Source of the DNA: a virus
IMG/VR virus record: IMGVR_UViG_3300021373_000508
Span: 1 to 22,836 of that record
Direction: 5' to 3' (one strand)
DNA: 22,836 nucleotides
Shown: piece by piece, positions 3,325 to 18,294 of the stretch
Layout of the letters: each line of letters begins with the position of its first letter
Numbering within the stretch: the first letter of the stretch is position 1
Program-made: the position numbers and the translations under genes
Notes under the pieces: model-generated
What the model was told of the DNA's origin: nothing
What the model saw: the letters and a program-made list of their open reading frames with translations, nothing else
Database searches by the model: none

Positions 3325-3438
3325 ATGCCAATGGTAGGTAAAAAGAAGTTCCCATACACTAAAGCAGGTAAGACTGCCGCTAAGAAAGCCGCTAAGAAAA
3401 CTGGTAGGAAAGTAAAGAAAGTAAAAGGTAAGTACTAA
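3325..3438 (+). CDS. 37-residue lysine-rich protein
   Basis: A very small gene preceded by a GAGAGG ribosome-binding site (3311-3316). The product starts MPMVGKKKFPYTKAGK and continues with AAKK repeats to KVKGKY. It has 14 Lys and one Arg in 37 residues and no acidic residue, resembling the tail of histone H1-like proteins. Similar MPMV...KKFPYT tiny proteins are, from memory, found in this position in other marine podoviruses. It ends in a TAATG overlap with the next basic gene, so the three basic proteins are translated in series. A role in neutralising DNA or the acidic scaffold during assembly is possible, but unproven. Confidence 0.75.
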   Translation: MPMVGKKKFPYTKAGKTAAKKAAKKTGRKVKKVKGKY

Positions 3439-3836
3439 TGGCTAGAACCGATGAAGCTAAATGGAAGCGCATCGTAGCCGCAGTTAAAGCAGGAAGCAAA
3501 GGCGGGAAGGCAGGACAATGGTCTGCTCGTAAGGCACAGTTAGCCACTCAACGCTACAAGAAGGCGGGCGGTGGTTACACTGGCGGTAAGACTAAAGCCC
3601 AAAAGTCTCTATCTAAGTGGACTAAAGAGGATTGGGGAACTAAGTCTGGTAAGCCTAGCACTCAGGGTAAGAAGGCTACAGGTGAGCGTTACTTGCCTAA
3701 GAAGGCACGAGAGTCTTTGTCTAAGAAGGAGTATGCCGCTACGTCACGTAAGAAACGTGCTGACACCAAAGCAGGTAAACAATTTAGTAAACAACCTAAA
3801 AAGATTGCAAAGAAAACAGCAAGACATAGAAAATAG
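3438..3836 (+). CDS. DUF5872-like small basic protein
   Basis: A 132-residue Lys-rich protein. It contains a GSKGGKAGQWSARKAQLA block near residues 18-36, a YKKAGGGYTGG turn, WTKEDWGTKSGKPS, GERYLPKKARESLS and a C-terminal QPKKIAKKTARHR segment. This arrangement of W-T-x-E-D-W-G-T-K-S-G-K-P and E-R-Y-L-P-K-K-A-R matches my recollection of DUF5872, a family of unknown function in phages, giant viruses and bacteria. No catalytic motif is evident. The start overlaps the upstream stop (TAATG). It is the last gene before the promoter at 3840, so it closes the portal transcription block. Confidence 0.82.
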   Translation: MARTDEAKWKRIVAAVKAGSKGGKAGQWSARKAQLATQRYKKAGGGYTGGKTKAQKSLSKWTKEDWGTKSGKPSTQGKKATGERYLPKKARESLSKKEYAATSRKKRADTKAGKQFSKQPKKIAKKTARHRK

Positions 3837-6339: not shown

Positions 6340-7767
6340 ATGGCTATATTCAGAGGTGTAGGCGGTGCAGGTACTGCGTCAGACAATGCATTCTTATTGG
6401 AGATTAGTGAAGCATCCGAGGCGGCACAAGCCGCGGCTCAACAAGCTGAACAATCAGCCCTTGCCGCTGTAAATGCAGAGGTAAGTTCAGCTACCTTTAA
6501 CACCAGTGACGGTGTACTTACATTGACTAAGACAGGCGGTGCAACAGTTACCGCAGACCTTGATGGTAGGTTTCTTACGTCATACACAGAAACAAACGAT
6601 TTATCCACAGCTGTAACGTGGGCTAATGTTCCTGATGCAAATATAACTGAGTCTAGTGTTACACAACACCTTACTGCTTCTAATGTGTCTGCCGCAGGTG
6701 CGCTAATGGATTCAGAAGTAACTAACCTAGCACAGGTTAAGGCTTTTGATTCAAGCGATTATGCTACATCTGCACAAGGCACGACAGCAGACAACGCCCT
6801 GCCTAAAGCAGGTGGGCAGATGACGGGTAACATTACTTTCTCTGGTACACAAACTGTAGACGGTAGAGATTTATCTGTAGATGGTGCTAAACTAGATAAT
6901 ATTGAAGCAAATGCAGACGTAACGGACACAGCTAATGTAACATCCGCAGGTGCGCTAATGACTACAGGGGGTCAGCTAACGGGTAACATTACTTTTTCTG
7001 GCACACAAACTGTAGACGGTAGAGACTTGTCTGTTGACGGTTCTAAACTAGATAGCATTAAAAAAAGAACATTTGGTAATACAACTGGAATTAGTATCAC
7101 TACTACTAGTCCTGTAACAATATTTGAAGGCGGTATTGCCGCTCCAAACGTTAATGCATTACAAACAATGACAGCACGTTTTCACTTAAGGGTTAGTAAC
7201 TCAAGCACAGCTAATAAATTAAATAACCAATACTACCTTACTAAATTTCTTTATTCAAAAGGCACATCAGGTGTTTCTATAGGTACAGCAACTTATGATA
7301 GTTCACCTTCCCCTTATAATGCATGGTATTATGTGTCTGGTGATAAAACAGATATTATTGTTCCAAACAGAGGAAGAATGGCAACATCATCGGCAGGTGC
7401 TAGTAGTGGTCAAGTATTAGGTAGTTATTATGATTCAACTAATAATAGAACATATTTCAGAATAAGTAAATTTCCAGATGCAACCACTGTTTATAATAAT
7501 GTAACTGTTTACTATTCTGTAGATAGTTTTGTTAATTCAGGTTCTTATGTTGCAAATAATAATAATTTCAATAGTAGGTATTTTAGTCTTTTAGCTAAAT
7601 CTCTTTCTACTCCTACATACCAATCTCCTGATATTGCCATAGAAGATAGTTTTGGTAGGTCGAGTACTGCTACAAAATTTAAAATAGAAATTGATTTTAT
7701 TACTAGCTTAACAAATATAAGCGTTGGTGTTTATGATTTTATGGGACATACTGAGGTTTCACCGTGA
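6340..7767 (+). CDS. Tail fibre-like protein with exchangeable distal domain
   Basis: A 475-residue protein. The N-terminus (GVGGAGTASDNAF) leads into an Ala/Gln/Glu-rich trimeric coiled-coil candidate (residues 23-50), then TFNTSDGVLTLT β-strands. It has two 31-residue copies of a GGQ-TGNITFSGTQTVDGRDLS module (residues 158-188 and 210-240) typical of phage fibre shafts. From about residue 241 the sequence changes to a Ser/Asn/Tyr-rich β-rich domain with no recognised family, probably the receptor-binding tip. Base composition changes at the same point: the 3' 700 bases are clearly more AT-rich, with AAT/TAT-rich runs. This fits acquisition of a tip domain by recombination at the shaft repeats. 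The start has AGGA (6329-6332) upstream. Confidence 0.82.
   Translation: MAIFRGVGGAGTASDNAFLLEISEASEAAQAAAQQAEQSALAAVNAEVSSATFNTSDGVLTLTKTGGATVTADLDGRFLTSYTETNDLSTAVTWANVPDANITESSVTQHLTASNVSAAGALMDSEVTNLAQVKAFDSSDYATSAQGTTADNALPKAGGQMTGNITFSGTQTVDGRDLSVDGAKLDNIEANADVTDTANVTSAGALMTTGGQLTGNITFSGTQTVDGRDLSVDGSKLDSIKKRTFGNTTGISITTTSPVTIFEGGIAAPNVNALQTMTARFHLRVSNSSTANKLNNQYYLTKFLYSKGTSGVSIGTATYDSSPSPYNAWYYVSGDKTDIIVPNRGRMATSSAGASSGQVLGSYYDSTNNRTYFRISKFPDATTVYNNVTVYYSVDSFVNSGSYVANNNNFNSRYFSLLAKSLSTPTYQSPDIAIEDSFGRSSTATKFKIEIDFITSLTNISVGVYDFMGHTEVSP
6811..7059 (+). repeat. Two tandem 93-bp fibre-shaft modules
   Basis: Copy one is 6811-6903 and copy two 6967-7059, offset by 156 bases (52 codons). 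The encoded 31-residue modules differ at only three positions (Met/Leu, Ala/Ser, Asn/Ser). A shorter shared segment, SAGALM, precedes each. The repeats stay in frame, so unequal recombination would shorten or lengthen the shaft without breaking the gene. Confidence 0.9.
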
Positions 7768-8046: not shown

Positions 8047-8214
8047 ATGGTAACGGAAGAAACAAAACAAGCTGTAGACGTAATGGCGGCATCAACTGGT
8101 ATAATGTCGTTGGCGGCTTGGTTGCCTCCCGTTGCTAGTTTATTTACGATTATCTGGTTAGGTATTCGTATTTATGAGTCAAAGACAGTACAAGATTTAT
8201 TGCGTAAGAAATGA
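8047..8214 (+). CDS. 55-residue putative holin (T7-like class II size)
   Basis: A short gene with AAGGAA (8033-8038) eight bases before the ATG. The product has a charged N-terminus MVTEETKQAVDV, a hydrophobic stretch of residues 17-43 (SLAAWLPPVASLFTIIWLGI) interrupted by Pro-Pro, then RIYESKTVQDLLRKK with a positively charged end. Depending on the Pro-Pro break it could form one long or two short membrane helices. Size, topology and charged tail match small holins that form holes in the inner membrane. It overlaps the next gene (ATGA). The holin call rests on topology, position and recollection of similar marine phage proteins. It could also be another small membrane protein. Confidence 0.65.
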   Translation: MVTEETKQAVDVMAASTGIMSLAAWLPPVASLFTIIWLGIRIYESKTVQDLLRKK

Positions 8215-8837
8215 GACAAGTTTTTTGCTTACTAATGATGTTGTCTTGGGTAACACTGGCGGACAACGCTCAGGAAGGTAGTTTGAATACGTACCACGGT
8301 GCTAACTCGACTACTAATAGTAACAATACAACTACAGATACGTCAACTAGTAATACGTACAATGGAGCAGGAAGCAGTAGCGAAATACCAGTAGGTTCTG
8401 CAATCACTCCTAGTTACATGAGTAATGGTATGGACACTTGCCTTAAGGGTTCAGGTGGTTCATTACAGACAGTAGGCGTAGGTTTGTCAAGCGGTAGTTA
8501 TGATGTTGACCCTGAATGTAACAGACGTAGGGACGCTAAAGTACTAGCTGATTTAGGAATGAAGGTAAGTGCCGTAGCACGTATGTGCCAAAGCACTGAA
8601 GTATGGAAGGCAATGTTTATCTCAGGTACACCTTGCCCCATACTGAACAACGGTAAGTTGGTTGTAGGTAAACGTGCTATGTTAGTTATGAAACGTCAGC
8701 CAGAGACTTACATACCAGACTACAACAAGAAAACAAAAGATTGGTACAATACTGTATTAAACATAGGAGGAGAGGACACAGATGAAGAAGATACTATTAT
8801 CTCTATTAGTGCTAAGTTCCGTAGCTCACTCAAGTGA
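8211..8837 (+). CDS. Exported protein with signal peptide and four cysteines
   Basis: A 208-residue protein beginning MRQVFCLLMMLSWVTLA, a good Sec signal peptide with cleavage likely between residues 17 and 20. A Ser/Thr/Asn-rich linker (24-57) follows, then a compact domain with Cys77, Cys103, Cys126 and Cys142, enough for two disulfides in the periplasm. Recognisable blocks are EIPVGSAITPSYMSNGMDTC, ECNRRRDAKVLADLGMKV and GTPCPILNNGKLVVGKRAML. From memory, similar proteins occur in other marine podoviruses without assigned function. The Cys near residue 6 is not a lipobox. The last 56 bases overlap the next gene. It may act in the periplasm during lysis or at the envelope, or be a virion protein exported on its own; the sequence does not decide. 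Confidence 0.78.
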   Translation: MRQVFCLLMMLSWVTLADNAQEGSLNTYHGANSTTNSNNTTTDTSTSNTYNGAGSSSEIPVGSAITPSYMSNGMDTCLKGSGGSLQTVGVGLSSGSYDVDPECNRRRDAKVLADLGMKVSAVARMCQSTEVWKAMFISGTPCPILNNGKLVVGKRAMLVMKRQPETYIPDYNKKTKDWYNTVLNIGGEDTDEEDTIISISAKFRSSLK

Positions 8838-9627
8838 GTACGATGCTTTACTAGAATCTAGCACTGCTATAGTTGACAAAATCAATACTGGTATCCTCCT
8901 AGTAGGTGCGGCTCAGGAATACGCACATCATGGTGATGCTTTGTCGGACGGCACTATGTCCACCACAGCACACATTAGTGAAGCTGAAGTACAAGCGTAC
9001 AATACTGCATTGACTAACTTTGCTACTAACTATCAGCCATATGGTGACGTTAAGGCTGTATTAGAAAACAAAGCTATGGAAGAACTAGAACTAATGGATG
9101 ATGCCATTGGTACATTCACTGAAGTTGTTGTAGAGATGATTGAAGTACAACAAGTAGCTGAACGTGTAGAGGAAGCTCAAGGTAATCCACAGCAGGAAGA
9201 AGAAGTACAGACGTTTGTAGCTGAGACTGTAGAAGTCCTACAGATTGAACAAGAGACTGTTGACACTTACAACCAGTCAGTAGATGACATTGAGACTCAC
9301 GCTAACAACGCTAGTGCTTATTTAGCCGTAGCTAACTCAGAGGAAGCTGTAGCATTCCTAGAGCAAGGCGTTGAGAATGCTAACACTACAGCGGAGCAGA
9401 CTAACATCTTCTATGACGCTAACGCACAGTGGGTGTCTATGGGTTATCCTACCACACGTAACCTAACGGCTATATTCCTTAACGGTAATGACGACATAGG
9501 TTTAAACTTGTACGTTACTGAGACTGACATCCTAGCGGCAGGTAGTGAATCAGAGTTCTTCCAAACAGGACCAACTCATCTAGGTTACTCTTGCTTTATG
9601 TATGGAACGGAGTGTGTTGAACTATGA
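8782..9627 (+). CDS. Second exported protein, acidic and helical, with C-terminal cysteine pair
   Basis: A 281-residue protein starting MKKILLSLLVLSSVAHS, a classic signal peptide with cleavage expected after AHS. The start lies inside the previous gene; AGGAGG (8765-8770) and GAGAGG just upstream support it. The mature part is very acidic and helical (Glu/Val/Thr/Gln-rich, residues 90-215) with features of an antiparallel helical bundle, followed by WVSMGYPTTRNLTAIFLNGN and a short C-terminal loop with Cys271 and Cys278 that could form a disulfide. No enzyme motif is recognised. It sits directly after another exported protein and before a membrane-anchored coiled-coil protein, suggesting a set acting together across the periplasm. 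The stop overlaps the next ATG (ATGA). Confidence 0.78.
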   Translation: MKKILLSLLVLSSVAHSSEYDALLESSTAIVDKINTGILLVGAAQEYAHHGDALSDGTMSTTAHISEAEVQAYNTALTNFATNYQPYGDVKAVLENKAMEELELMDDAIGTFTEVVVEMIEVQQVAERVEEAQGNPQQEEEVQTFVAETVEVLQIEQETVDTYNQSVDDIETHANNASAYLAVANSEEAVAFLEQGVENANTTAEQTNIFYDANAQWVSMGYPTTRNLTAIFLNGNDDIGLNLYVTETDILAAGSESEFFQTGPTHLGYSCFMYGTECVEL

Positions 9628-10052: not shown

Positions 10053-10451
10053 ATGTTACAGCAATTAATTGGACCAGTTACAGGTTTACTTGACAAATTT
10101 ATAGAGGATAAAGACAAGAAGAATGCTATCGCGTTTGAACTTTCGACAATGGCTGAAAAACACGCGCAGGAACTTGCGAAAGCGCAAATTGAAGTTAATA
10201 AGACAGAAGCGGCACACAAGAGCTTATTTGTGTCAGGTTGGAGACCTGCTGTTGGTTGGACTTGTTGTCTTGGACTTGCGAGTAACTTCCTTCTTATCCC
10301 GATGGCAAATTTTGCGCTTGCTCTTGCCAATTCTACCATTGAAGTCCCTGTTCTAGATTTGTCAACTATGATGCCAGTCCTTATGGGTATGCTTGGTTTA
10401 GGTGCTATGAGAACTGCTGAAAAAGTTAAAGGTGTCGAAAGGAATAAATAA
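10053..10451 (+). CDS. 3TM-type holin (GTA-holin-like family)
   Basis: A 132-residue protein with an amphipathic charged N-terminal helix (residues 14-55), the signature block SGWRPAVGW (61-69), a hydrophobic helix about 67-90 and a second about 103-119, ending in a basic tail KVKGVERNK. The WRPAVGW-type motif followed by hydrophobic helices is characteristic of the Holin_3TM family linked to lysis in phages and gene-transfer agents. GAGG sits upstream of the start. It ends in a TAATG overlap with the next gene. With the 55-residue membrane protein at 8047 this would give two holin-like proteins in one cassette; one could be an antiholin. Confidence 0.82.
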   Translation: MLQQLIGPVTGLLDKFIEDKDKKNAIAFELSTMAEKHAQELAKAQIEVNKTEAAHKSLFVSGWRPAVGWTCCLGLASNFLLIPMANFALALANSTIEVPVLDLSTMMPVLMGMLGLGAMRTAEKVKGVERNK

Positions 10452-12469
10452 TGAGCGTATATCAACGTCCTCCAAATTATTATTTTCTACCTAAAGCACA
10501 GCAAGAAGAAATAGATAGAAAAATATACGAGCAGAAAGTTGCTGATGGTGTTATTGCTTCAGGTAGCGGTATGCTTAGTTATGCTCCTTCTACTGGCTCT
10601 GGTGCGAGCAAGGCTTTAGCGGCAGAAGGTAAAACACCTGAATCCGAGATTTATTATACACCTGAAGAATTAGCCGCCCGCGCTGAAGAAGAAGAAAAAA
10701 TAAGAGCAGAAAAAGCCGAAGAAGCAAAACGTGTTTCTGAAAGAATGGCAATAGCGGCTTATGAAGAAAGAAGAAAAGAAGAGGACTTTGAGAATCTTTT
10801 TCGTTCAGGAGAGTTTGAGCAAGGAGATTATGAAGAGCGCAAAGAAGAATACTTTGAAACTGACAGACCAGACAAAGACTTTAAAAGCGCAGAAGAAAAT
10901 TTAAATTACCGTGAAAAGATTTTAAACTTTAATGATGTAGATAATTACTTTGATAAGTTTTCAGATGAAGAAGAAATCTACTCAGTAGCGGCAGGTGAAC
11001 TAATAACTAGAAGAGATGATGCTTTATTATCAACGTATACATCTCCTGATAGCTTAGGCGCGGCAAAAGAAAGAGCAGATTATTATTATATACAAAGCTT
11101 AGAGAGAAGCCTTGAAAAAGCGACAACTGCTGAAGAAAAAAAATCTTTAAAAGAATTAATAGACAAAGGCGCACCTAATTTTGATACAATAGAAGATATT
11201 AAAAATTGGGAATCTTTAGAGTCTACTTATAAAAACAAAGACTCCAGTAAAGATTTTAGCGTTGAACGTGCTGAGTATGATGCTTTAGATATGCAAAAAA
11301 CCGTAATGGCTGAGTTTGTGACTCAACCTGCGGGAGGCGGCTTTAGTGACTTTAGAAGAGAGTACGGTGGTAACTTTGCATATCGTGCTTTTACATTACC
11401 AAAGGATGAGTCTGGTAATACCATACAACCTGAATACAGGGGAGATGTACGTTTAAACACAGGAACGGCTTACAATCAAATATCTTCCTCTGTACTAGAA
11501 GATAAAGATTCGACAATAGGTGGCTTTGGTGAAACTACTTATGTACTTCCTGAGTTTGAAGAGCCAAGTAAACTTCAACAGTTTGCTCAACCTTTAGGTC
11601 TTATTCTTAGCGCAATCTTTCCGCCTTCCGCACCTATTATTATGGGTGTGTCTACAACAATAGCAACAGACGGAGATATAGAAGAAGGTATAAAATCTGG
11701 TTTAGAAACCTACGTAACAGGTAAAATAACCGATATAACTAAAGACCAAATATTAGATGCTTATGAAGCCGCAGATATTCCTGTACGAGAACTTGACCTA
11801 TATACACAATCAAAATTAGTTGAAGTTACAAACGATGTTTTAGCAGGAAAGTCAGGAACAGAGTCAGCCGAATCAGCAGTTAAAAGTATTATATGGAAAA
11901 ACTTAAAAGAAACCGCATCGGAAGAATTTCCTGAAGGCGAAGGTTTTGATTTTGATTTCGATTTTGATTTGTCAGGTATTAATATAGGTGGGTTTGATTT
12001 AGATTTATTTGACGATATTAAAGGGTTAGATTTTTCTGGTTTGGATTTACCTGATTTTGATATAAGTTTTCCAGATGTAAAGCTACCAGACATAGATATA
12101 GATAAGCCTAACATAGATTTAGACTTTCCTGATTTTCCTGAATTAGAATTAGGCGGTATAGACGTAAACTTAGAAGGTATAGATTTAAACTTATCAGGTA
12201 TGGATTTAAACGGATTTGATTTAAATTTAGATGGTAAAGGTTTAGACTTAAGTGCTCCAGACATAGATATAGACACTCCAGACATAGATATAAATATACC
12301 AGACATGGATTTACCTTCTTTAAACCTTGGTCTTAGTCTTGCGGAAGAAGAAGAGGAAACGGAAGTCGAACAATTATTTTCAGATGAATTATTTAAATAT
12401 GACACAAAGATTGGGTACACAATGCCACTGACCAAGTCTAAGAAAACAAACTCAAGGAAATTTATATAA
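10451..12469 (+). CDS. Large protein with acidic helical N-terminus and Asp-rich repeat domain
   Basis: A 672-residue protein of unrecognised family. Residues 1-60 contain Tyr/Pro and Gly/Ser segments; 70-250 are charged and helical (Glu/Lys/Arg/Ala, e.g. ARAEEEEKIRAEKAEEAKR). A hydrophobic stretch near 375-405 (LGLILSAIFPPSAPIIMGVS) and the Gly-bounded segment after it resemble membrane-interacting parts of phage ejection proteins. Residues 499-621 form an Asp-rich repeat array of mostly G/P-x-D-x-x units with about one Asp in every four residues, no Arg or Cys, followed by an EEEEETEV stretch. Coupled by TAATG to the holin upstream and to the adaptor gene downstream. A virion component, fibre or ejection protein is plausible; the repeats could bind calcium, but neither is proven. 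Confidence 0.72.
   Translation: MSVYQRPPNYYFLPKAQQEEIDRKIYEQKVADGVIASGSGMLSYAPSTGSGASKALAAEGKTPESEIYYTPEELAARAEEEEKIRAEKAEEAKRVSERMAIAAYEERRKEEDFENLFRSGEFEQGDYEERKEEYFETDRPDKDFKSAEENLNYREKILNFNDVDNYFDKFSDEEEIYSVAAGELITRRDDALLSTYTSPDSLGAAKERADYYYIQSLERSLEKATTAEEKKSLKELIDKGAPNFDTIEDIKNWESLESTYKNKDSSKDFSVERAEYDALDMQKTVMAEFVTQPAGGGFSDFRREYGGNFAYRAFTLPKDESGNTIQPEYRGDVRLNTGTAYNQISSSVLEDKDSTIGGFGETTYVLPEFEEPSKLQQFAQPLGLILSAIFPPSAPIIMGVSTTIATDGDIEEGIKSGLETYVTGKITDITKDQILDAYEAADIPVRELDLYTQSKLVEVTNDVLAGKSGTESAESAVKSIIWKNLKETASEEFPEGEGFDFDFDFDLSGINIGGFDLDLFDDIKGLDFSGLDLPDFDISFPDVKLPDIDIDKPNIDLDFPDFPELELGGIDVNLEGIDLNLSGMDLNGFDLNLDGKGLDLSAPDIDIDTPDIDINIPDMDLPSLNLGLSLAEEEEETEVEQLFSDELFKYDTKIGYTMPLTKSKKTNSRKFI
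11945..12313 (+). repeat. In-frame Asp-rich, about seven-residue protein repeats
   Basis: The 123 encoded residues contain 32 Asp. Clear seven-residue units are LGGIDVN, LEGIDLN, LSGMDLN, then SAPDIDI, DTPDIDI, NIPDMDL. Earlier units are less regular (FDFDFDFD, GFDLDLFDD, PDIDIDKPNIDLDF). The alternation of hydrophobic residues with Asp suggests stacked β-strands, as in a β-solenoid or AHNAK-like PDxDI arrays. At DNA level the CCAGACATAGATATA block recurs (12071-12101 area and 12259-12292 area), indicating expansion by duplication. Confidence 0.85.
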
Positions 12470-13122
12470 TGACTTACTTACAACTAGTAAACAGTGTACT
12501 TCGTAGGATGCGTGAAAACGAAACAACTACTGTTGAAAACTCAACGGATACTTATGTAAGACTAATAGGTGAGCTTGTTAACGATGCTAGACGTATTGTT
12601 GAGGATGCTTGGGATTGGTCAGCACTCAGAACTACACTTATCGCAGAAACCACAGCAGGTGTTTTTAATCTTAAACTAGAAGAAACTAACAACTCGTTTA
12701 AAATCTTAGACGTTATTAATGATACATCTAATCTATTTATGCGTCCTGCTAGTTCCGCTTGGATGAACAATGCATACTTAATCCAAGAGCCTCTTACAGG
12801 TTCTCCTGAGTACTATTCCTTTAATGGTGTGAATGCTGATGGTAGCGCACAGGTTGACATATATCCTAAACCAGATGGCGCGTATAAGTTAAACTTTAAC
12901 ATTGTAGACAGGACAGACCCATTTACAAATGACACAGATAAGCTGTATGTACCTTCAGCACCAGTAATTCAATATGCAGTAGCTTTAGCTTCCCGTGAGC
13001 GTGGAGAAACAGGTGGTACTTCATCACAGGAACTATTCTCTCTAGCGGACACTACGTTAGCAGATGCAGTAGCGTTTGATGCCGCTAGATTCCCTTCTGA
13101 AACTGTATGGACACCTTGCTAA
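12469..13122 (+). CDS. Head-tail adaptor protein (P22 gp4 / SU10 adaptor type)
   Basis: A 217-residue protein expected to bind under the portal and link it to the tail nozzle. It is nearly the usual length of podovirus adaptors, starts with a helical MTYLQLVNSVLRRMRE segment and IGELVNDARRIVEDAWDWSAL, and has β-rich middle strands (LNFNIVDRTDPF) and a helical end (ALASRERGETGG...). The W-D-W after a helix of acidic and basic residues is typical of this family. AAGGAAA (12453-12459) lies upstream; it starts in TAATG overlap with the Asp-repeat gene and ends in the same way with the nozzle gene. Confidence 0.85.
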   Translation: MTYLQLVNSVLRRMRENETTTVENSTDTYVRLIGELVNDARRIVEDAWDWSALRTTLIAETTAGVFNLKLEETNNSFKILDVINDTSNLFMRPASSAWMNNAYLIQEPLTGSPEYYSFNGVNADGSAQVDIYPKPDGAYKLNFNIVDRTDPFTNDTDKLYVPSAPVIQYAVALASRERGETGGTSSQELFSLADTTLADAVAFDAARFPSETVWTPC

Positions 13123-17487: not shown

Positions 17488-18294
17488 ATGGGTATAGATG
17501 TAGGAGGTTTAGTTGGCGGTGCTTTAGATATTGCTTTAGCTGAAGCAGTAGCTGACAAGGCTGTCGAAAAAGTAGAAAAAATAGGTCAAGAGGCTCAAAC
17601 AGGAGCAGGTCTGCTTGCTGAAGAAGTTTCAGGAATGACTCAATTTCAACCCTTCAGTGTTATGACAGGGTTGGGCGGTGCGGATGTATCAGCAACGGGT
17701 GGTTATGATTTAAACTTAAGTCCTGAACAACAAGCTTTACAAAACCAGTTGTTTACTAGAGCGCAGGGTTTGTTTGACTTTGCCGCAACTGACCCTTCAG
17801 AATCACAAGCTGAGATGTATGAAACACTTAGAGGATTACAGCGACCTGAAGAGGAAAGAGCGCGGTTAGCTTTAGAGGAACGTATGTTGTCTCAAGGACG
17901 TTTGGGTTTAGCGTCTGATGCATACGGTGGTGCTACTCCAGAAATGTTGGCGCAAGCACAAGCTCAAGAGCAAGCTAAACTACAGGCAAGCTTAGGTGCA
18001 AGAGACGCGGCTATGGCGGAACGTCAGCAAGCGTTAGCGACAGGTCAGGGTTTAATGAGCTTAGGTTATATGCCACAACAGCAAGCATTAGCCTCTCTAG
18101 GTATGGGCAGTGAATTAGCTAAACTAGGATTAACAGGACAAACAGCGGGTGCTGAGTTGTTCGGACAGCTAAGTCAGACAGGACTAGAAAGTCAAATCCA
18201 AGCACAGCAATTAGCGGCAATGATAAGACAGGCTCAGATAACAGGTTTGTTTGAAGCTATGAAAGGCGAAAAAGGTCTGTTTAATTTAGGATAA
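17488..18294 (+). CDS. Putative internal/ejection protein 1
   Basis: A 268-residue protein with a strong AAGGAGA (17474-17480) before the start. The N-terminus GIDVGGLVGGALDIALAEAVAD is Gly/Ala-rich and hydrophobic; the centre (about 150-190) is a Gln/Ala-rich coiled-coil candidate (MLAQAQAQEQAKLQASLGAR), and the C-terminus has further Gln-rich helices (ESQIQAQQLAAMIRQAQITG). Such helical Gln/Ala-rich proteins after the tail genes of podoviruses are often internal proteins ejected with the DNA. The role is inferred from order and composition. Confidence 0.72.
   Translation: MGIDVGGLVGGALDIALAEAVADKAVEKVEKIGQEAQTGAGLLAEEVSGMTQFQPFSVMTGLGGADVSATGGYDLNLSPEQQALQNQLFTRAQGLFDFAATDPSESQAEMYETLRGLQRPEEERARLALEERMLSQGRLGLASDAYGGATPEMLAQAQAQEQAKLQASLGARDAAMAERQQALATGQGLMSLGYMPQQQALASLGMGSELAKLGLTGQTAGAELFGQLSQTGLESQIQAQQLAAMIRQAQITGLFEAMKGEKGLFNLG

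Follow-up and report, generated by a model that had tools for sequence, protein, structure and literature searches.

A pre-adaptor protein family of SU10-type podoviruses with an exchangeable acidic linker

We suggest that gene X, which lies directly before the tail adaptor gene in an uncultured SU10-type podovirus, encodes a virion-associated protein of the tail or ejection apparatus, in which a long polyanionic stalk or spacer joins a conserved helical head to a short motif for docking at the C-terminus. We hold this reading to be somewhat better than even. The exchangeable part of X turns out to be the linker, one always-acidic connector between conserved ends. The X family is undescribed, and its architecture is new as a protein layout.

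The window, that is, the whole 22.8 kb stretch of DNA analysed, comes from an IMG/VR virus record and covers an SU10-type podovirus structural region. Its genes are ordered as terminase, portal, scaffold, capsid protein, a fibre-like gene, small envelope genes, holin, X and adaptor. Past the adaptor follow a nozzle-like gene, called so by its position, a second fibre gene and then the putative internal virion proteins A, B and C, named by position and size only. The genes upstream of X resemble envelope or lysis genes. The start of X overlaps the last base of the holin stop codon and its end overlaps the adaptor start. The fibre genes, at 6340 and 14846, are separate from X and have fibre matches. 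X carries the largest negative net charge (−78) among the window proteins computed. The genes and signals to which we refer are as follows.

10053..10451, + strand: holin (GTA_holin_3TM), upstream neighbour of X, about 89% identical across relatives
10451..12469, + strand: gene X, 672 residues, net charge −78, with 104 distinct family members at the equivalent position
12454..12459, + strand: AAGGAA, likely ribosome-binding site of the adaptor by direct reading, inside the last codons of X
12469..13122, + strand: SU10-type tail adaptor (PF24175, E 2.7e-9), downstream neighbour of X, about 79% identical across relatives
17488..18294, + strand: putative internal virion protein A, whose N-terminal charge differs between X-bearing and X-lacking phages

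Elsewhere in the window, positions 3438-3836, between the portal and scaffold genes, encode a very basic (net +33), Lys/Arg-rich protein of 132 residues. Two overlapping genes at 8211-9627 have signal-peptide-like starts and are highly conserved across relatives; one of them is strongly acidic (net −40).

The query P0001 retrieved no more than two relatives, of which one is an identical record, and for scanning genomes the profile of all A1 proved too variable. Scanning with the adaptor yielded 80 loci, in most of which the gene directly before the adaptor is X, and scans with the family profile and protein A then led to 104 distinct X proteins. An HMM of the conserved core (residues 195-486) retrieves the family. 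The median identity to the window is 30% for X (hits only), 89% for the holin and 79% for the adaptor. The signature of the family comprises a position directly upstream of an SU10-type adaptor, an LNTGTA core, an acidic linker and LFxxELFKFxTxI near the end, all of which are present in the window X. Neither Pfam nor PHROG contains a match to the window X, and none was found in 50,697 phage records. Thus, the earlier statement that no described phage family carries such an array stands, and the array does adjoin tail genes. Cultured phages gave portal and adaptor relatives only, very distant and none with X, and the genome contigs nothing but remote Prevotella adaptor fragments.

Two loci (L172:2-2085 and L177:708-2998) have two consecutive genes before the adaptor, one for a 612-residue protein, intact in L177 and 5′-cut in L172, and one for a 151-residue protein ending in LLGSLFKDL; these are possibly X split in two. 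The X homologues of L178 (1861-3990) and L185 carry another variable repeat, VAPKTT, close to the N-terminus, with a four-unit copy difference at 99% identity.

The alignment of the family shows a variable N-terminus, a conserved LNTGTA core, a hypervariable linker and a conserved C-terminal motif. In the window X these parts are located as follows.

10451..11032, + strand: variable, charged and partly coiled N-terminal part, residues 1-194, poorly conserved in A1/A2, with a model helix at 71-118
11033..11908, + strand: conserved core, residues 195-486, all-helical at 202-291 with pLDDT mostly above 90 (AlphaFold)
11453..11470, + strand: LNTGTA motif, residues 335-340, the most conserved spot of the core
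11570..11665, + strand: hydrophobic helical segment, residues 374-405, with model helices 374-389 and 391-405
11909..12355, + strand: exchangeable acidic linker, residues 487-635, whose type, length and unit number vary among relatives
11945..12313, + strand: Asp-rich P-[DE]-Φ-(x-Φ)n array, residues 499-621
12362..12409, + strand: conserved C-terminal motif region, residues 638-653, family form LFxxELFKFxTxI, with a model helix at 638-647

T337, G338 and T339 of the LNTGTA motif are nearly invariant, and distant members carry LTTGTA, LTTGSG or LNTGSQ. The segment 374-405 has a hydropathy of 1.83 in the window and exceeds 1.6 in only 10 of 88 members, so a canonical membrane helix was rejected for most members. 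At the C-terminus E640, F643, E646 and K649 are nearly invariant, and the motif region is retained in distant phages. The invariance of the last residues, NLRRYG, was rejected as pure evidence of docking: they overlap the ribosome-binding site of the adaptor, to which part of their conservation is due.

The sequence-only reading had singled out 11945-12313 as an Asp-rich seven-residue repeat array. Direct count confirms that these positions are exactly residues 499-621 of the 672-residue protein and hold 32 Asp in 123 residues (26%, versus 6.7% in the remaining protein). The LEGIDLN and DTPDIDI units it had cited are present, and so is the DNA-level repeat: CCAGACATAGATATA occurs in three exact copies, at 12086, 12257 and 12278, and once more at 12299 with 2 mismatches, against a chance expectation of 0.06. 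The low-complexity region reaches somewhat beyond the array, over about residues 490-635. As to the seven-residue period, the identities at lag 7 number 33, far above the shuffle mean of 14.9 and reached by 0 of 5000 shuffles, but the units are of 3, 5, 7 and 9 residues and clean 21-bp repeats are restricted to two short stretches.

12155..12211, + strand: 21-bp tandem repeat, 2.7 copies, seven-residue unit of the LEGIDLN type
12255..12310, + strand: 21-bp tandem repeat, 2.7 copies, seven-residue unit of the TPDIDIN type

Lags 5, 12 and 14 also stand out, and the spacing from Asp to Asp is mostly 2 or 5. The array is thus no clean heptad; its spacing mixes 5 and 7. Opposite the repeat runs a long antisense ORF (11761-12435, − strand; 224 residues, Ser/Lys-rich), which also occurs in relatives (L003) and for which the biased codons of the array are the best explanation.

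The alternation of hydrophobic residues and Asp, also claimed earlier, is supported, and its two-residue register is strictly kept. Hydrophobic and polar residues alternate at 100 of 122 steps, versus 61 in shuffles (shuffle maximum 81). In five related linkers, those of the window and of four relatives with a like linker, the spacings between successive prolines no more than 11 residues apart are odd in 104 of 104 cases, versus about 56% in shuffles; the window by itself offers few spacings, 8 of 8 odd, a result that shuffles sometimes match. P-[DE]-Φ begins at most prolines of these linkers. From the odd spacings and these starts follows the unit grammar P-[DE]-Φ-(x-Φ)n, 3+2n residues long, with lengths of 3, 5, 7 or 9. 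Across all family members ΦPxΦ recurs after 3, 5, 7 or 9 residues and never after 4, 6 or 8. The sole even spacing, 10, consists of 5+5 units with the middle member off-motif (Ala before Pro, or GLDI). An extended amphipathic chain would be expected to show just such a constraint on register.

Relatives differ in the type of linker that they carry. Asp-rich P-[DE]-Φ linkers are found in the window, L003, L014, L019 and L086, and amphipathic helical repeat linkers in most X members. Other members combine helical and LPDIDLP repeats (e.g. L020 and L037). In L138 the linker is of VDVP and collagen-like type, and Pfam Collagen scores above cut-off in the linkers of both L138 and L144, a hint that some members form trimeric stalks. 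Still more distant genes occupy the equivalent place in L149, L156 and L168, with TP-rich and GKDG linkers; only position and a short ELFK-like end, and not the HMM, connect the L149 group with the family. The linker is exchangeable: L014 and L043 share 69% of the head and 28% of the linker, which is of different type, while in the pair L043 and L087 the linkers are 69% identical and the heads only 43%. Near-identical pairs differ by one whole linker unit, of 7 residues at 99.9% identity, 9 at 99.7% and 5 at 99.1%. The linker is acidic in 83 of 83 measured, with net charges from −9 to −115.

We suggest that the two ends of X act on different partners and that the middle would be a polyanionic stalk or spacer, the Asp-rich array being the stalk of the window's lineage. 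The stalk may act by physical means: being extended, acidic and amphipathic, the chain would set the distance and the charge between the ends. Because this role is physical, the stalk would be free to change length by whole units and to be swapped by recombination, and the replacement stalks would be other acidic types: amphipathic helix, mixed or collagen-like. The placement of X in the virion is read from its gene context. Several observations stand against the proposal: the strict proline register exceeds the need of a random-coil spacer, no cultured relative carries X, the covariation of X loss with protein A is a single event, the adaptor's ribosome-binding site accounts for part of the C-terminal conservation, the hydrophobic segment is no canonical membrane helix in most members, and the L149 group is tied to the others only by position and a short motif. 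Since the register is strict, pure disorder does not tell all about the array; an extended amphipathic chain that is ordered only in a trimer fits both this register and the absence of structure in the monomer prediction.

Close to the earlier idea of a calcium-dependent or antifreeze-like β structure is an alternative in which the array is an ordered β structure, such as a pentapeptide-like β-solenoid or a trimeric β-stalk, perhaps stabilised by cations. The strict alternation and the odd proline spacing speak for it, as do the collagen stalks of some relatives and two weak profile similarities, one to designed pentapeptide-repeat proteins (E 3.6e-8 with the profile and 0.003 with just the window array), the other to stretches of apolipoprotein B (E 1.3e-12 in the PDB profile search). 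However, both of these matches are gapped and LxLPxL-driven, and we judged them compositional. The AlphaFold monomer of the whole X has no strands in the array and leaves residues 490-635 without structure (block pLDDT about 28-36). Neither strands nor structure appeared when the array was modelled as a fragment together with the six closest linkers (pLDDT 35-49); both are monomer predictions from few sequences, with which a trimeric stalk remains compatible. Units of 3, 5, 7 and 9 residues break a fixed five-residue coil: the pentapeptide motif [ASTV][DN][LF]xx at a period of 5 runs for 1 unit at most in the window and for no more than 2 in relatives. The calcium part of the idea is not supported, as there is no RTX (GGxGxD) or dockerin/TSP3 (DxNxDGxxD) match and the D-x-[DNS]-x-[DNS]-G strings, three loose ones, fall short of a full EF-hand loop (DxDxDG). 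The antifreeze part is likewise unsupported, the TxT motif being absent, as are strands of the array in the monomer predictions of protein and fragment. Disorder and variable, unconserved repeats had been named as findings that would count against the β structure; the AlphaFold monomer gives the one and the comparison of relatives the other. Altogether we regard an ordered β array as unlikely. Searched with Foldseek, the AlphaFold model had no match with E below 0.1 among PDB and viral models.

Slightly more doubtful still is a surface fibre or host-range protein, the linker variation of which would reflect an arms race with the host. X diverges much faster than its neighbours, and PHROG tail-fibre families typically have collagen-like stalks, but the core and the C-terminus are conserved while the linker varies by simple units, the window has its separate fibre genes at 6340 and 14846, and no receptor-binding domain was found in X. 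The matches of some members to tape-measure PHROGs and to collagen or fibre families appear to be driven by the linker repeats, and the core is not identified by them. It is improbable, in turn, that the array merely reflects low-complexity drift in a spacer that is dispensable and under selection for nothing. Fast change, unit slippage and the complete loss of X in one clade speak for drift; the acidity of all 83 linkers, the register in all 104 spacings and the conservation of both ends speak against it. Finally, the overlap of the X start codon with the holin stop and the envelope- and lysis-like genes upstream might make X an accessory lysis protein, which we consider very improbable, as X is equally coupled to the adaptor, has no detected hydrolase domain, and is absent from phages that retain the upstream genes.

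The loss of X bears on the favoured tail or ejection role. X is absent from ten loci, in which its last seven codons (MNLRRYG) are left after the holin stop, in L033 and L034 with one base changed; these codons contain the Shine-Dalgarno-like AAGAAGG of the adaptor. Because this scar is present, the X-lacking state is derived by deletion. The scar lies at the holin-adaptor junction of the lacking loci L007-L051, e.g. at L010:4520-4565. The X-lacking loci with a full nozzle form one clade in the nozzle tree. The genes downstream were not replaced wholesale, since protein C of the X-lacking L008 is still 87% identical to that of the window. In the six X-lacking loci with a readable protein A (L007, L008, L010, L012, L034 and L048) its N-terminus is basic, net +4 to +9, of KKRKAAK type. 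It ranges from −10 to 0 in 60 distinct sequences from X-bearing loci, where X-bearing means a gene of at least 60 residues upstream of the adaptor, homologous by position for some distant loci. Protein A, which we assign to the virion interior from its position, has no match in PHROG. The covariation only suggests a functional link and is a single event, because the X-lacking loci form one clade. We propose, tentatively, that stalks are chosen by physical properties only, with β-like P-[DE]-Φ-(x-Φ)n chains, amphipathic helices and collagen-like repeats interchanging through recombination while acidity is kept, and that the loss of X is offset by the basic N-terminus of an ejection protein; this joint proposal is possible rather than probable. 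A hydrophobic N-terminus of protein A was rejected as a marker of X loss, as charge separates the groups and hydropathy fails to, and fibre length was not a clean correlate. In the fragment L199:1-919 a homologue of the small near-portal gene is followed by the adaptor without X between them, and X may lie elsewhere; the N-terminus of the L199 protein A is hydrophobic and neutral.

If the proposed role is true, X, common in uncultured short-tailed phages yet undescribed, amounts to an experiment done by nature: polymer types that are unrelated replace one another in one part of a virion protein, with the ends constant. One could then ask whether length, charge or fold is what such a stalk or spacer requires. 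The clade that deleted X, with its scar and its difference in another putative virion protein, indicates a functional partner that can be tested. The exchangeable stalk is a more unusual pattern than the Asp repeat. Annotators gain a signature (pre-adaptor position, LNTGTA and LFxxELFKFxTxI) for a protein missed by standard family libraries.

Last, we compare X with known systems. The ejection proteins of T7-, P22- and SU10-type podophages are similar to X in their tail-operon context, mosaic evolution, helical core and low cross-group conservation (PMC8954989, PMC9509320); ejection proteins as such are mosaic (PMC8954989). However, the SU10 ejection proteins, gp20-24 (PMC9509320), are numbered after the adaptor gp11, whereas the X gene precedes the adaptor. 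The number just before gp11 belongs to gp10, which is predicted to be immunoglobulin-like and has no capsid density (PMC9509320). X showed no detectable similarity to known ejection proteins by PHROG, Pfam, PDB-sequence or fold comparison, and therefore we do not file it among them. Pentapeptide-repeat β-solenoids share the Leu-rich five-residue spacing of some X relatives and the weak profile similarity; unlike them, X has no A[DN]LXX consensus, no predicted strands (monomer) and a variable unit length. PEVK-type entropic chains and AHNAK and periaxin repeats are eukaryotic, long and described or predicted as extended and disordered, and their repeat regions are polyampholytic or mildly basic (PMC7072810). 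The phage array has in common with them pentapeptide-like repeats, P-[DE] and evenly spaced proline (PMC7072810), so that the AHNAK comparison drawn earlier is fair as a resemblance, but it is strongly acidic, and the likeness is one of pattern. The collagen-like stalks of phage tail fibres (PF01391, PHROG collagen-like minor tail) differ in that the window X has no Gly-X-Y repeats and no Pfam match, and X is no recognised fibre. They are nevertheless alike as exchangeable low-complexity stalks, and true collagen repeats fill the linker of the related X of L138 and L144.
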